From Acidobacteriota bacterium (GTDB lineage: Bacteria; Acidobacteriota; Thermoanaerobaculia; UBA5066): a stretch of DNA of 64,000 nt. The notes under the pieces are model-generated. The model did no database searches. It was not told the DNA's origin and saw nothing but the letters and a program-made list of their open reading frames with translations. Positions 25,168-30,434 of the stretch are shown here, piece by piece. The DNA lies in NCBI GenBank assembly GCA_029781975.1, contig JAKOVQ010000003.1, positions 314,034-378,033 of the forward strand, in the 5' to 3' direction. Made by a program: the position numbers and the translations under genes. Numbering within the stretch: the stretch's first letter is position 1; every line of letters begins with the position of its first letter.

Positions 25168-25315
25168 GGTCCGCTGGGACGCGACTCCTCCGACGGGGAG
25201 CCGCCGGCGTTACCGAACCCCCTCTGGACAGCCGGTGCCGCGCAGCGGACGCACGATGCGGCCTTACCGGACGACCACCGAGTCGTCATCGCTCCCGATG
25301 AGAGGAATTTCATGA
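25168..25315 (+). CDS. Putative 48-codon leader ORF coupled to glutamate dehydrogenase
   Basis: A short frame opening ATG at 25168, seven bases after TACAAT, and stopping at TGA 25313-25315, whose bases overlap the gdh ATG at 25312 (ATGA). The peptide (MVRWDATPPTGSRRRYR...) is rich in Arg, Ser, Thr and Pro and resembles no family known to me. It could be a leaderless leader peptide that couples or regulates gdh translation, or only a 145-nt untranslated region that happens to be open. No independent evidence of translation. Confidence 0.3.
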
Positions 25316-26595
25316 AGAGTCCGTTCAACCCGTTCGAGATGGCCCAGGCCCAGTTCGACAAGGCGGCCGACGTCCTCGGCCTCGACGCCCCCTCCCGCGA
25401 CCTCCTGCGCTTCCCGCTCCGCGAGTACCACTTCTCGATCCCGGTCCGGATGGACGACGGGACGACGAAGGTCTTCCGCGGGTTCCGGGTCCAGCACAAC
25501 GACGCGCGCGGTCCGTCCAAGGGCGGCATCCGCTTCCACCCGCAGGAGACCGTCGACACCGTCCGGGCCCTGGCGATGTGGATGACGTGGAAGTGCTCCG
25601 TGGTCGACATCCCGCTCGGCGGCGGCAAGGGCGGGGTCATCTGCGACCCGCACAACCTGAGCCAGCGGGAGCAGGAGGGGATCTGCCGCGGCTGGATCCG
25701 CCAGATCGCCAAGAACGTCGGCCCCGTCAACGACGTCCCCGCCCCCGACGTCATGACCTCGCCCCAGCACATGCTCTGGATGCTCGACGAGTTCGAGACG
25801 ATCCACGGCGGCAAGTATCCCGGGTTCATCACGGGCAAGCCGCTCGGGATGGGTGGCTCCCTCGGCCGGACCGAGGCGACCGGCTACGGCGTCGTCTTCA
25901 CGCTGCGCGAGGCGCTCAAGCAGCTGGGGATCCCGATCGACAAGACGAGGGCCGCCGTCCAGGGCTTCGGCAACGTCTCGCAGTACGCCGTGAGGCTCTA
26001 CCAGCAGCTCGGCGGGAAGGTCGTCTGCGTCTCGTCGTGGGACCAGGCGGACCAGACCTCCTACACCTTCCGGAAGCTCGACGGCGTCGACCCGGACGCC
26101 CTCCTCGGGATCGCCGACCGCTTCGGCGGGATCGACAAGGAGAAGGCAGCGAAGCTGGGCTACGGGGTCCTTCCGGGAAGCGCCTGGATCGAGCAGGACG
26201 TCGACATCCTGATCCCGGCGGCGCTCGAGAACCAGATCACCGGCGAGACCGCCCGGAAGATCAAGCCCTCCGTGAAGGTGATCGCCGAGGGGGCCAACGG
26301 CCCGACGACCCCCGACGCCGACAAGGTCCTCCAGGAGCGCGGCATCTTCGTCATCCCCGACTTCCTCGCCAACGCCGGCGGCGTCACCTGCAGCTACTTC
26401 GAGCAGGTGCAGTGCAACCAGAACTACTACTGGGAGCTCGACGAGGTCCTCGGCAAGCTCGACACCAAGATGACCTCCGCCTTCCACGCCGTCTCCGAGC
26501 TCGCCGCCAAGCGGAAGCTCTACATGCGCGACGCGGCGTACGTCATCTCCGTGAGCCGCGTGGCCAAGGCCTGCAAGGACCGCGGCTGGGTCTGA
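25312..26595 (+). CDS. gdhA: Glu/Leu/Phe/Val dehydrogenase (glutamate dehydrogenase, hexameric type)
   Basis: 427 residues, the usual length of NAD(P)-glutamate dehydrogenases of about 50 kDa. It interconverts glutamate and 2-oxoglutarate plus ammonia. Signatures: VQHNDARGPSKGGIRFHP (with the substrate-binding Lys), the catalytic-lysine region VDIPLGGGKGGVICDP, PAPDVMT, GRTEATGYGV and the dinucleotide motif GFGNVSQYA. The C-terminal part ends NAGGVTCSYFEQVQ, standard. The acidic/non-acidic residue after the second strand is not diagnostic by eye, so cofactor choice (NAD or NADP) is open. The ATG is preceded by AGAGGAAT and overlaps the stop of a possible leader ORF. A hairpin lies just after the stop. 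Confidence 0.95.
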   Translation: MKSPFNPFEMAQAQFDKAADVLGLDAPSRDLLRFPLREYHFSIPVRMDDGTTKVFRGFRVQHNDARGPSKGGIRFHPQETVDTVRALAMWMTWKCSVVDIPLGGGKGGVICDPHNLSQREQEGICRGWIRQIAKNVGPVNDVPAPDVMTSPQHMLWMLDEFETIHGGKYPGFITGKPLGMGGSLGRTEATGYGVVFTLREALKQLGIPIDKTRAAVQGFGNVSQYAVRLYQQLGGKVVCVSSWDQADQTSYTFRKLDGVDPDALLGIADRFGGIDKEKAAKLGYGVLPGSAWIEQDVDILIPAALENQITGETARKIKPSVKVIAEGANGPTTPDADKVLQERGIFVIPDFLANAGGVTCSYFEQVQCNQNYYWELDEVLGKLDTKMTSAFHAVSELAAKRKLYMRDAAYVISVSRVAKACKDRGWV

Positions 26596-26610: not shown

Positions 26611-26636
26611 GGGGGAGCCCCGGACGGGGCTCCCCC
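26611..26636 (+). terminator. GC-rich hairpin after glutamate dehydrogenase
   Basis: An 11-bp perfect stem (GGGGGAGCCCC / GGGGCTCCCCC) with a 4-nt loop, 15 bp after the gdh stop. No T-run follows, so it may only slow polymerase or protect the mRNA end. Confidence 0.5.
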
Positions 26637-26711: not shown

Positions 26712-29700
26712 ATGAGCGGTCCCGGCCGGTCGATGCTGGAGGGCCTCCAGGAGAGGGCCAAGGAGCTCCACTGCCTCTACCGCGTCCACGCGATCTGCGG
26801 GCGCGTCGAGGCGCCGCTGGACGAGGTCTTCCGCGAGGTCGTCGCGATCATCCCGGTCGGCTGGCAGCACCCCCCCGACTGCACCGTGAGGATCACCGTC
26901 GGGACCTCGGTCTACGGCACCCCCGGGGCCGAGCCGACCCCGTGGGTCCTCTCGGCCCCGATCCGCGTCCAGGGCGAGGTCGCCGGGCAGATCGAGGTCT
27001 TCTACCGGCGCGCCCACCCGCCGGCGGACGAGGGGCCGTTCCTGAGGGAGGAGCGCAAGCTCGTCGACACCATCGCCGAGCTCCTCGGCCAGCTCCTCCT
27101 CCACCGCCAGCTCGTCTCCTCGATCCGCCGGGTCGACGCGAGCGGCCGGCCGGTCCCGGCCGAGTCGGGCGACTGGTGGGTCATCGTCGACTTCCTCCGA
27201 CAGATCGACCGCCCCGGCTACGTGAAGATCGCCCGCCGGATGCTGAACTACCTCTGCTGGAACGGCATCGAGGAGGCCCAGCGCCTCCTCCCTCGCTTCA
27301 CCGGGAGCTGGAGCGGCCCGGGAGGCCCCGAGGAGCCGACGGACGAGAACCGCCCGATGGTCCGCCGGAACCTCGACGTCCTCCTCAAGGTGGCCGAGGA
27401 GGTCTTCGAGATCGCCCCGCGTCACCTCGTCCCCGCCGAGATCCTCGCGAGCATCCAGAAGTGGATCAAGGACGACCGGTCGGGCTTCCTCATCGAGGCG
27501 GTGGAGAACCAGGGGACGTCGCTCACCGACCTGGCACAGGCCCTCTCCCGCTTCCACCACGCCGCCCTCAACGACCACGAGCTCTCGCGCTCGCTCCAGG
27601 TCGACCTCAGGGTCGCGCTCGCGCGCCGCTTCCTCACCGACCACCTGCAGTTCATCGGCGTGGCGAAGAGCTACATCGAGGTCTCCGACTTCCAGGAGCT
27701 GACGCGGCGGATCATCTGCCCGCCCGGGAGCCACGGGAAGGTGGGCGGGAAGAGCAGCGGCCTCTTCCTCGCGGTCCAGATCGTGAGGAAGTCGGAGGAG
27801 TACGCCGAGACGCTCAAGGAGATCCGGATCCCGAAGACCTGGTACGTCACCTCCGACGGCGTCCTCGACTTCATCGAGTACAACCACCTCGAGGACCTCT
27901 ACGACCGGAAGTACCTGGAGATCGACCAGGTGCGCCGCGAGTACCCGCACATCATCCAGGTCTTCAAGAACAGCCAGTTCTCGCCCGAGATCGTGAAGGG
28001 GCTCTCGCTCGCGCTCGACGACTTCGAGGAGCGGCCGATCATCGTCAGGAGCTCGAGCCTCCTCGAGGACCGCGTCGGCGCGGCCTTCTCGGGGAAGTAC
28101 AAGAGCCTCTTCCTCGCCAACCAGGGGCCGAAGAAGGAGCGCCTGGCCGCCCTCATGGACGCCATCTCGGAGGTCTACGCGTCGATCTTCGGCCCCGACC
28201 CGATCGAGTACCGGGCCGAGCGCGGGCTCCTCGACGTCCACGAGGAGATGGGGATCATGATCCAGGAGGTGGTCGGCTCGCGGGTGGGGAGGTACTTCCT
28301 CCCGACCTTCGCCGGCGTCGCCTTCTCGAACAACGAGTTCCGCTGGTCCGCGCGGATCCGGAGGGAGGACGGCCTCATCCGCCTCGTCCCGGGCCTCGGG
28401 ACGCGCGCCGTCGACCGGGTGGGCGACGACTACCCCGTCCTCCTCGCCCCGGGGCAGCCGGCCCTCCGCGTGAACGTGACGACCGACGAGATCGCCCGCT
28501 ACTCGCCCCGCCGGATCGACCTCATCAACCTCGAGACGGGCCGCTTCGAGACCGTCGACGTGGAGAGCTTTCTCGCCGAGACGGGGGGGAGCCTCCCGGG
28601 GGTCGAGGAGATCGTCTCCCTGCTGGAGGAGGGGCGGGTCCACCGGCCCTACATGGTCGACTGGGAGCGCCAGGCCCGCGACCTCGTCGTGACGTTCAAC
28701 GGGCTCGTCACCGGCACCCCGTTCGTCACCCGGATCCGGTCGCTCCTGAGGCTCCTCTCGGAGAAGCTCGGCGGGCCGGTCGACATCGAGTTCGCCTCCG
28801 ACGGGCGCGACCTCTACCTCCTCCAGTGCCGCCCCCAGAGCTTCTCCGTCGAGGCGCAGGCGACGCCGATCCCGCCCGACGTCCCCCCGGAGCGGGTCGT
28901 CTTCACGGCGAACCGCTTCGTCTCGAACGGCAAGGTCCCCCACGCCACGCACGTCGTCTACGTCGACCCCGAGGGCTACGCGTCGATGGGCGACCCGGAG
29001 AGCCTGCGCCGCGTCGGCCGCGCCGTGGGCCGCCTCAACAAGACGCTCCCGAAGCACCAGTTCGTCCTGATGGGGCCGGGGCGGTGGGGGAGCCGCGGGG
29101 ACATCAAGCTCGGGGTCCCCGTCACCTACTCCGACATCAACAACGCCTCCGTCCTGATCGAGGTCGCGCGCCGGCGCGGGAACTACGTCCCCGACCTCTC
29201 GTTCGGGACGCACTTCTTCCAGGACCTCGTCGAGGCGAGCATCCGCTACCTCCCGCTCTTCCCCGACGACCCCGGCATCGTCTTCAACGAGGCCTTCTTC
29301 CTCGGCTCGCCGAACGCCCTGGCGGACCTCGCCCCCGACTTCGCGGACCTCTCCCGGACCGTGCGGGTGATCGACGTCCCGGCGGCGACGGGGGGGCTCG
29401 TCCTGAACGTGGTGATGAACGCCGACCTCGACCGCGCCCTCGCCTTCCTGGCGCCGCCCCCCTCCGAGGCGGAGCGGGCCGCCGAGCGGCGGCGCGTCGC
29501 GGCCGGCGGGACGGCCCCGTCCCCGCCCGAGGACCACTCGCGCTGGAGGGCCCAGATGGCCGAGCGGATCGCCGCCGAGGCCGACGCCGACCGGTACGGC
29601 GTCCGGGCCATCTGGCTCGTCGGCTCCTCGAAGAACGGGACGGCCGGCCCGGCGAGCGACGTCGACCTCCTCGTCCACGCGGAGGACGACCCGGCGAAGC

Positions 29701-29921
29701 GGGCGTGCCTGGCCGCGTGGCTCGAGGGGTGGAGCCTCTGCCTCTCCGAGACGAACTTCATCCGGACCGGGGTGAGGACCGAGGGGCTCCTCGACGTCCA
29801 CTTCGTCTCCGACGCCGACGTCGCCCACGGGGCCGACTGGGCCGCGAAGGTCGGGGCCCTCACCGACGCGGCCCGTCCCCTCGCGCTCCCGAAGAAGGGG
29901 CGGGCGCAGGCCGCCCGCTGA
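26712..29921 (+). CDS. PEP-synthase/PPDK nucleotide-binding-domain protein fused to a nucleotidyltransferase
   Basis: 1069 residues, no signal peptide. Layout: an N-terminal GAF-like sensory region (about 1-135), a helical part (150-330), then the PEP/pyruvate-binding ATP-grasp domain of PEP synthases (about 340-710), with GKVGGKSSGLFLA, IIVRSSSLLEDRVGAAFSGK and the end motif LLQCRPQS. A conserved central part (about 720-890, GPGRWGSRGDIKLGVPVTYS) follows, and a C-terminal MNT-type nucleotidyltransferase (about 960-1060) with GSSKNGTAGPASDVDLLV. The phosphohistidine swivel (TGG..SH) and the PEP/pyruvate TIM barrel of true PEP synthases are absent, so it cannot be a complete PEP synthase. Perhaps a kinase-like or nucleotidyl-transfer signalling protein; I do not assign a reaction. 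Followed 12 bp on by a cupin gene. Confidence 0.82.
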   Translation: MSGPGRSMLEGLQERAKELHCLYRVHAICGRVEAPLDEVFREVVAIIPVGWQHPPDCTVRITVGTSVYGTPGAEPTPWVLSAPIRVQGEVAGQIEVFYRRAHPPADEGPFLREERKLVDTIAELLGQLLLHRQLVSSIRRVDASGRPVPAESGDWWVIVDFLRQIDRPGYVKIARRMLNYLCWNGIEEAQRLLPRFTGSWSGPGGPEEPTDENRPMVRRNLDVLLKVAEEVFEIAPRHLVPAEILASIQKWIKDDRSGFLIEAVENQGTSLTDLAQALSRFHHAALNDHELSRSLQVDLRVALARRFLTDHLQFIGVAKSYIEVSDFQELTRRIICPPGSHGKVGGKSSGLFLAVQIVRKSEEYAETLKEIRIPKTWYVTSDGVLDFIEYNHLEDLYDRKYLEIDQVRREYPHIIQVFKNSQFSPEIVKGLSLALDDFEERPIIVRSSSLLEDRVGAAFSGKYKSLFLANQGPKKERLAALMDAISEVYASIFGPDPIEYRAERGLLDVHEEMGIMIQEVVGSRVGRYFLPTFAGVAFSNNEFRWSARIRREDGLIRLVPGLGTRAVDRVGDDYPVLLAPGQPALRVNVTTDEIARYSPRRIDLINLETGRFETVDVESFLAETGGSLPGVEEIVSLLEEGRVHRPYMVDWERQARDLVVTFNGLVTGTPFVTRIRSLLRLLSEKLGGPVDIEFASDGRDLYLLQCRPQSFSVEAQATPIPPDVPPERVVFTANRFVSNGKVPHATHVVYVDPEGYASMGDPESLRRVGRAVGRLNKTLPKHQFVLMGPGRWGSRGDIKLGVPVTYSDINNASVLIEVARRRGNYVPDLSFGTHFFQDLVEASIRYLPLFPDDPGIVFNEAFFLGSPNALADLAPDFADLSRTVRVIDVPAATGGLVLNVVMNADLDRALAFLAPPPSEAERAAERRRVAAGGTAPSPPEDHSRWRAQMAERIAAEADADRYGVRAIWLVGSSKNGTAGPASDVDLLVHAEDDPAKRACLAAWLEGWSLCLSETNFIRTGVRTEGLLDVHFVSDADVAHGADWAAKVGALTDAARPLALPKKGRAQAAR

Positions 29922-29933
29922 GGGACCGACGCG

Positions 29934-30434
29934 ATGCGCCTGCCGACCCTCTTCACCCGCGACCGCCTCGACGACCTCGTGTCCCGGGCCCGCTCCGCGC
30001 CCCGGCTCCGGCTCAACCTCAACCTCCACGCGATGGAGGACCCTGTCCATCGGCTGTTCAATGCCGTCGAGCCCGGAACGTACATCCGGCCGCACCGGCA
30101 CCTCGACCCGCCACGGACGGAGACGGTCGTGGTGGTGGCCGGCAGGGTCGGGCTCCTCGTCTTCGACGCCGCGGGTAACGTCCTCGAGCGCGCCGTCCTG
30201 GAGCCTGGAGGCCAAACCTTCGGGGCCGAGGTCCCCGCGGGGACCTGGCACACGTTCGTCGCCCTGGAGACGGGGAGCGTCTTCCTGGAGGTGAAGGAAG
30301 GGCCCTATGTCTCTCCGGGGGAAAGGGATGTGGCGGTGTGGGCGCCTCCCGAGGGGGACCCGTCGGCCGCAGAAACCGAGACTCGGCTCCGGACCATTTT
30401 TCTGGATCGCGAAAAGTCCTTCACCTCGACTTAA
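29934..30434 (+). CDS. WbuC-family cupin protein
   Basis: 166 residues. A single cupin barrel with the metal-site pattern PHRHLDPPRTETVVVVAGRVGL (His-x-His...Glu) and the second motif ending PAGTWHTFVALETGSVFLEVKEGPY. This matches the WbuC cupins, which are often found near surface-polysaccharide genes but whose reaction is unclear. Here there is no polysaccharide cluster; it sits 12 bp after the PEP-synthase-domain gene, so the two are probably cotranscribed. The C-terminal 25 residues extend beyond the barrel and end in the Thr-rich FTST. The TonB receptor promoter lies just downstream. Confidence 0.85.
   Translation: MRLPTLFTRDRLDDLVSRARSAPRLRLNLNLHAMEDPVHRLFNAVEPGTYIRPHRHLDPPRTETVVVVAGRVGLLVFDAAGNVLERAVLEPGGQTFGAEVPAGTWHTFVALETGSVFLEVKEGPYVSPGERDVAVWAPPEGDPSAAETETRLRTIFLDREKSFTST

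Follow-up and report, generated by a model that had tools for sequence, protein, structure and literature searches.

A conserved ATP-grasp and nucleotidyltransferase protein encoded beside glutamate dehydrogenase: a candidate nitrogen-status regulator

Overview

The 1069-aa protein encoded at 26,712–29,921 on the forward strand of the window (the whole stretch of DNA analyzed, 64,000 nucleotides in length) is a member of a conserved family rather than a curiosity, and its association with glutamate dehydrogenase (GDH), an enzyme at the junction of carbon and nitrogen metabolism, is well supported. The family occupies at least 581 loci. The reading that we favor, and consider somewhat probable, is that the protein acts as a nitrogen-status regulator of the GDH encoded upstream of it, by means of ATP-driven histidine phosphorylation together with nucleotidylation.

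Domain Organization and Conservation

From the N- to the C-terminus, the window protein consists of a GAF domain, a helical domain, an ATP-grasp domain, a domain designated GRWGS/GTHFF after its motifs, and a nucleotidyltransferase (NTase) domain. A sequence-only reading of this open reading frame had listed several motifs, all of which were located, including Q705-C706-R707-P708-Q709, GPGRWGS (788–794), and GS (971–972) followed by SDVD (982–985). An alignment (A1) of 73 relatives of the same architecture, mostly 50–75% identical, supports the gene call and served as input for an AlphaFold model of the whole chain (pLDDT 84).

The ATP-grasp and GRWGS/GTHFF domains together form a core that recurs in five architectures. 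Type A is the core alone (about 590 aa), while type B places two receivers ahead of it (REC-REC-core; about 1000 aa). Type C, to which the window protein belongs, is GAF-helical-core-NTase, and type D (about 800 aa) retains the helical domain and core without GAF and NTase. Finally, type E is GAF-REC-REC-core (about 1150 aa). In types B and E, the usual acceptor Asp is missing from the first receiver and retained in the second, in line with published Asp-less receivers that have PPDK outputs (PMC4395418).

The GAF-fold domain (residues 8–142; 26,733–27,137, forward strand) falls below the Pfam threshold (E 0.01), and its predicted structure is a clear GAF fold. In VIA-align, residues 7–139 of the model superimposed on 3cit_B, the GAF domain of a sensor histidine kinase, with a Z of 13.0 and an rmsd of 2.1 over 123 aligned residues, and NifA-type and PtsP GAF domains matched at Z 10.5–12. 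The same GAF subtype also occurs in histidine kinases encoded a few kb upstream of GDH-A-C genes (L018 1541–2755, L048 3219–4430, and L071 653–2743), the first of which is followed by an NtrC-like sigma-54 regulator. The helical domain (residues 155–331; 27,174–27,704, forward strand), delimited by DSSP of the model and module BLAST, is common to type D relatives.

The ATP-grasp domain (residues 341–712; 27,732–28,847, forward strand) is of the PEP-synthase type, as shown by Pfam (PPDK_N, 343–719, E 5e-57), by structural matches to rifampin phosphotransferase, and by conservation. The K, R, D/E, and Q-x-R residues of PEP synthase and PPDK are all present and invariant, with G346-K347, R446, D691/E693, and Q705-x-R707 kept in every C type. 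These signature residues, together with GPGRWGS and SFGTHFF, are retained without exception in the 73 relatives, which places the domains far beyond chance. That reading had also recognized the GAF-like part, the ATP-grasp, the C-terminal MNT-type NTase, and the lack of a PEP barrel, and all four assignments stand; no PEP-utilizer or PEP-barrel match was found by Pfam in the window protein. Annotation as a PEP synthase is rejected, since there is no PEP barrel and the C-terminus is an NTase. A PDB sequence search with the window protein returned ATP-grasp matches and weak NTase matches, and nothing further.

The Domain Following the ATP-Grasp

The sequence-only reading had described the protein as lacking the catalytic swivel and had proposed structure prediction as the check on this point. 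That description is probably wrong, as the GRWGS/GTHFF domain (residues 718–932; 28,863–29,507, forward strand) is quite likely to be a diverged swivelling domain. Predicted alone as residues 712–932, with an alignment of 94 sequences of types A–D (A2) as input, the domain was modeled with a pLDDT of 92.9 and a pTM of 0.90. VIA-align matches to this fragment were weak (Z 4–5.6), and swivel matches of this strength can reflect a common arrangement. Most of the matches were swivelling beta/beta/alpha folds, a class we take to correspond to SCOP fold c.8, and they included the C-terminal domain of Staphylococcus aureus pyruvate kinase (3t05), RraA, PPDK residues 373–518 (5jvj, 5jvl), the small subunit of carbamoyl phosphate synthetase, CCT apical domains, and PA domains. 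The order of elements in the fragment (strands, helix, strand, short helix, strand, loop, [TS]-H helix, strand) agrees with that of the PPDK swivel, and His834 heads its helix as in the TSH helix of PPDK.

His834 (codon 29,211–29,213, forward strand) is the candidate phospho-acceptor. It sits in an S-x-G-[TS]-H-F motif at the N-terminus of a modeled helix (833–841), and is invariant in 73 of 73 C types, in 36 of 36 proteins of types A–D, and in all 94 sequences of A2.

It is unlikely that the enzyme is truly swivel-less and the domain an unrelated fold, a possibility that would affect this one step only and would be compatible with GDH control. The TGGxxSH (GGxx[ST]H) motif is indeed absent from the 1069-aa chain, as the sequence-only reading had observed, and Foldseek found no match to the fragment below E 0.1. 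Likewise, Pfam holds no family covering the domain, and hhalign gave no profile match between it and true, PF00391-type swivels (probability 0.1%). Set against these results are the prevalence of swivelling folds among the VIA-align matches, PPDK and pyruvate kinase among them, the recovery of RraA with the whole model as well, and the agreement of the element order and the invariant [TS]-H at the helix start with the PPDK TSH helix. With only the canonical motif missing, the absent swivel is the sole part of the domain description in the sequence-only reading to be revised.

Association with Glutamate Dehydrogenase

The conserved neighbor overlooked by the sequence-only reading is a GDH of 427 aa (25,312–26,595, forward strand), identified from its translation and NCBIfam GDH models. 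In the window, it forms an operon with the C-type gene, 116 nt downstream, and a cupin gene. Among the 80 loci most similar to the window protein (the best 80 of at least 581), a GDH gene lies upstream on the same strand in 50 of the 52 with at least 3.6 kb of upstream sequence, mostly with C or A as the very next gene. Type A is found directly upstream of C in 45 of 62 of these loci, usually overlapping it by 1–10 nt, and GDH and A occur together in 39. A metallophosphoesterase (MPE) gene follows C, usually in convergent orientation, in 40 of 63. Judging from their record labels, the GDH-linked loci belong to Acidobacteria, Zixibacteria, Ignavibacteria, Calditrichota, planctomycetes, Gemmatimonadetes, Krumholzibacteria, Spirochaetes, and others. 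One locus (L142) carries B, NADP-GDH, GDH, A, and C in a single row, with a convergent MPE.

Co-occurrence in 61 genomes (the window's own and 60 relatives) points in the same direction. The window's GDH type and a C or D protein were found together in 23 genomes, with 5 and 1 discordant (Fisher p 5e-11, kinship ignored), while NADP-GDH and type B were found together in 15, with 4 and 1 discordant (p 8e-10, kinship again ignored). Type D likewise lies beside GDH in several genomes, and five genomes encode a 62–65% identical GDH without C or D. In Bacteroidales, 55 of 60 genomes possess core genes. Leaving aside the seed genome, 17 of the other 54 have a GDH within 6 kb of a core gene, compared with an expected ~0.7%, a figure likewise uncorrected for shared ancestry. 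Here, GAF-REC-REC-core and REC-REC-core proteins are often encoded near NADP-GDH, with GAF-NTase and MPE genes in separate operons.

Several details of these loci deserve mention. In two of them (L042 29–1318 and L081 2404–3750), the GDH beside A-C carries Met where an active-site Lys (GGGKGG) is normally found, and to judge from this substitution the operonic enzymes may be inactive; L081 has a second GDH nearby. In L030, L056, and L067, which are of Bacteroidota/Ignavibacteria type, a histidine-biosynthesis gene cluster lies downstream of C, an arrangement that is probably lineage-specific. In the window, the 116-nt gap between GDH and C has an unusually stable predicted RNA fold (z -4.4) and contains a perfect 11-bp inverted repeat at 26,611–26,636 (GGGGGAGCCCC-GGAC-GGGGCTCCCCC) with no T run, possibly a processing site or attenuator.

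The sequence-only reading had singled out the WbuC-family cupin (29,934–30,434, forward strand; TIGR04366, E 3e-44) as a neighbor. This holds within the window's own bacterial family and failed in the other loci when all were searched by tblastn, so the cupin is rejected as a general functional partner and probably lies outside the core system. The window's own genome carries a reduced module of GDH and a single C protein; no type A, type B, or MPE was found in it. It also has six other PPDK_N genes, and ordinary genes of the PEP synthase/PPDK type are therefore present elsewhere in the genome. On its contig C15 (~542–561 kb), four proteins with PPDK_N and PEP-utilizer domains (L101, L102, L103, and L105) are encoded within 20 kb, one of them in a 1714-aa open frame, and may perhaps represent a biosynthetic or modification cluster.

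Nucleotidyltransferases and Metallophosphoesterases

The C-terminal MNT-like NTase (residues 938–1062; 29,523–29,897, forward strand) is recognized by Pfam (NTP_transf_2, 960–994, E 1e-6) and by Foldseek matches to 2rff and HEPN-MNT structures. The MNT-type signature of GS, DxD, and a third Asp on a pol-beta fold is present, with G971 S972, D983, D985, and D1028, the last being assigned by alignment alone. All three Asp residues are intact in the window protein and are conserved in 72, 68, and 73 of the 73 C types, respectively. Five of the 73 carry a substitution at an active-site Asp, and nucleotidylation is thus not strictly required.

A separate GAF-NTase protein of 259–305 aa, followed directly by an MPE of the same subfamily, forms two-gene operons at three loci (L144, L146, and L147), and in L144 this pair directly follows a GAF-REC-REC-core gene. 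Within the class to which the window belongs, 6 of 61 genomes encode an MPE of this subfamily, all with a C type and none with D alone. In addition, an NTase Asp is mutated in four C proteins that have no MPE nearby, albeit in small numbers (p 0.03). These patterns fit a writer/eraser pair, with the NTase as writer and the MPE as eraser. Elsewhere, a 251-aa GAF-NTase gene (L140 4062–4814) stands on a contig with no MPE, in a genome that also encodes C, D, A, and B types. A PADLOC search gave weak NTase and esterase matches to candidate models and called no defense system, and that assignment was set aside.

A Possible Nitrogen-Status Regulator

The sequence-only reading had offered "a sensory nucleotide-transfer or phosphotransfer enzyme" as a possibility, and the general direction of this is supported by the GAF fold, the intact ATP-grasp, the largely conserved NTase site, and the receiver-bearing relatives. 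Regulation of GDH is proposed to proceed as follows. The GAF domain would bind a nitrogen-related metabolite, most naturally glutamine or 2-oxoglutarate if EI-Ntr and NifA are taken as analogues; glutamine is known to bind the GAF domain of EI-Ntr and to inhibit its autophosphorylation (PMC4848567). The ATP-grasp would then phosphorylate His834 on the diverged swivelling domain that follows it, a step suggested by the conserved residues and topology and modeled on PEP synthase and on rifampin phosphotransferase, in which ATP phosphorylates the swivel His en route to AMP and Pi (PMC4844700). Because there is no PEP barrel or recognized substrate domain, the phosphoryl group would be passed to a protein partner or kept as an internal signal. 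Lastly, the C-terminal NTase would nucleotidylate a target, in the simplest case GDH or the core itself, and the MPE, where present, would remove the nucleotide again. The data establish the domain make-up, the conservation, the linkage to GDH, and the separate GAF-NTase/MPE operons, while ligand, target, and chemistry are inferred.

Alternatively, the core could be a metabolic enzyme for the activation of a GDH-linked metabolite such as glutamate or 2-oxoglutarate, with the operon encoding a short pathway from GDH. The closest characterized cores are indeed enzymes (PEP synthase, which phosphorylates pyruvate; rifampin phosphotransferase; and PigC, which joins two substrates), the gene overlaps resemble those of pathway genes, and two different cores, A and C, are often co-encoded. 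However, the GAF, receiver, and NTase fusions and the nearby histidine kinases suit signaling better, two distinct GDH types each have their own core type, and Pfam recognizes no substrate-binding or PEP-barrel domain, and we therefore regard an enzymatic role as fairly unlikely. Less probable still is a scaffold or allosteric GDH binder, in which the ATP-grasp and NTase would sense ATP or nucleotides without transfer and the covalent chemistry would be vestigial. The altered NTase Asp in 5 of 73 C types, the persistence of type D beside GDH despite its lack of GAF and NTase, and the loss of the active-site Lys from two operonic GDHs would all be in keeping with such a role, but neither the ATP-grasp residues nor His834 vary in any of the types, and pure scaffolding needs no such invariance.

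If the regulatory reading is extended to the whole family, GDHs of many phyla would be paired with dedicated ATP-grasp/diverged-swivel proteins in an undescribed nitrogen-control system comprising a GAF or receiver sensor, ATP-driven His phosphorylation, reversible nucleotidylation by the NTase, and a dedicated MPE eraser. We advance this wider proposal tentatively, as somewhat less probable than not. To our knowledge, covalent control of GDH has not been described in Bacteroidota, Acidobacteriota, and related groups, and a family that follows GDH across phyla while recombining sensor, receiver, NTase, and phosphoesterase modules is a concrete, testable candidate. It further suggests that many proteins annotated as "phosphoenolpyruvate synthase" in these same groups make no PEP.

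Comparison with Known Systems

While the individual folds are known, none of the family models or papers found describes their combination, the pairing with GDH, or the GAF-NTase/MPE module. No NCBIfam or Pfam model was found for the whole C type, nor one for the GAF-NTase protein or the core's second domain, and the open-access literature yielded no paper on this architecture or its GDH link, save for census notes on REC-PPDK response regulators. The latter, noted as Bacteroides-like (PMC5847659), and the Asp-less receivers mentioned above (PMC4395418), are probably relatives of types B and E with the same core; these notes give neither a function nor a GDH link, and the window protein itself has no receiver.

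Rifampin phosphotransferase, PEP synthase, and PPDK (PF01326 + PF00391) share with the window protein the ATP-grasp fold (Z 18–20), its signature residues, and a swivel-sized domain after it with a single candidate His. In contrast, the window protein lacks TGGxxSH, the PEP barrel, and the rifampin-binding domain, and adds the GAF domain, the NTase, and the GDH neighbor; the rifampin phosphotransferase model NF041857 scored 36 bits against a cutoff of 999, over the ATP-grasp part only. EI-Ntr (PtsP) resembles it in having an N-terminal GAF domain, a link to nitrogen, and a phosphohistidine mechanism (proposed for the window protein), but uses PEP through a barrel, whereas the window protein has an ATP-grasp and NTase and no PEP barrel by Pfam. 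The MntA NTases of HEPN-MNT toxin-antitoxin systems have the same NTase fold and GSx..SDxD motif, while the window NTase is fused to a sensor/ATP-grasp protein with GDH and a cupin as gene neighbors, and scored 23.3 bits with the MntA model NF047752, below the cutoff of 60. Finally, GlnE and GlnD offer a parallel in the proposed reversible nucleotidylation within nitrogen metabolism, which here would be divided between an NTase and a separate phosphoesterase. In place of their features, the family has a minimal MNT-like NTase, a GAF rather than an ACT domain, and a calcineurin-like esterase as the putative eraser, and its target would be GDH rather than GS or PII.
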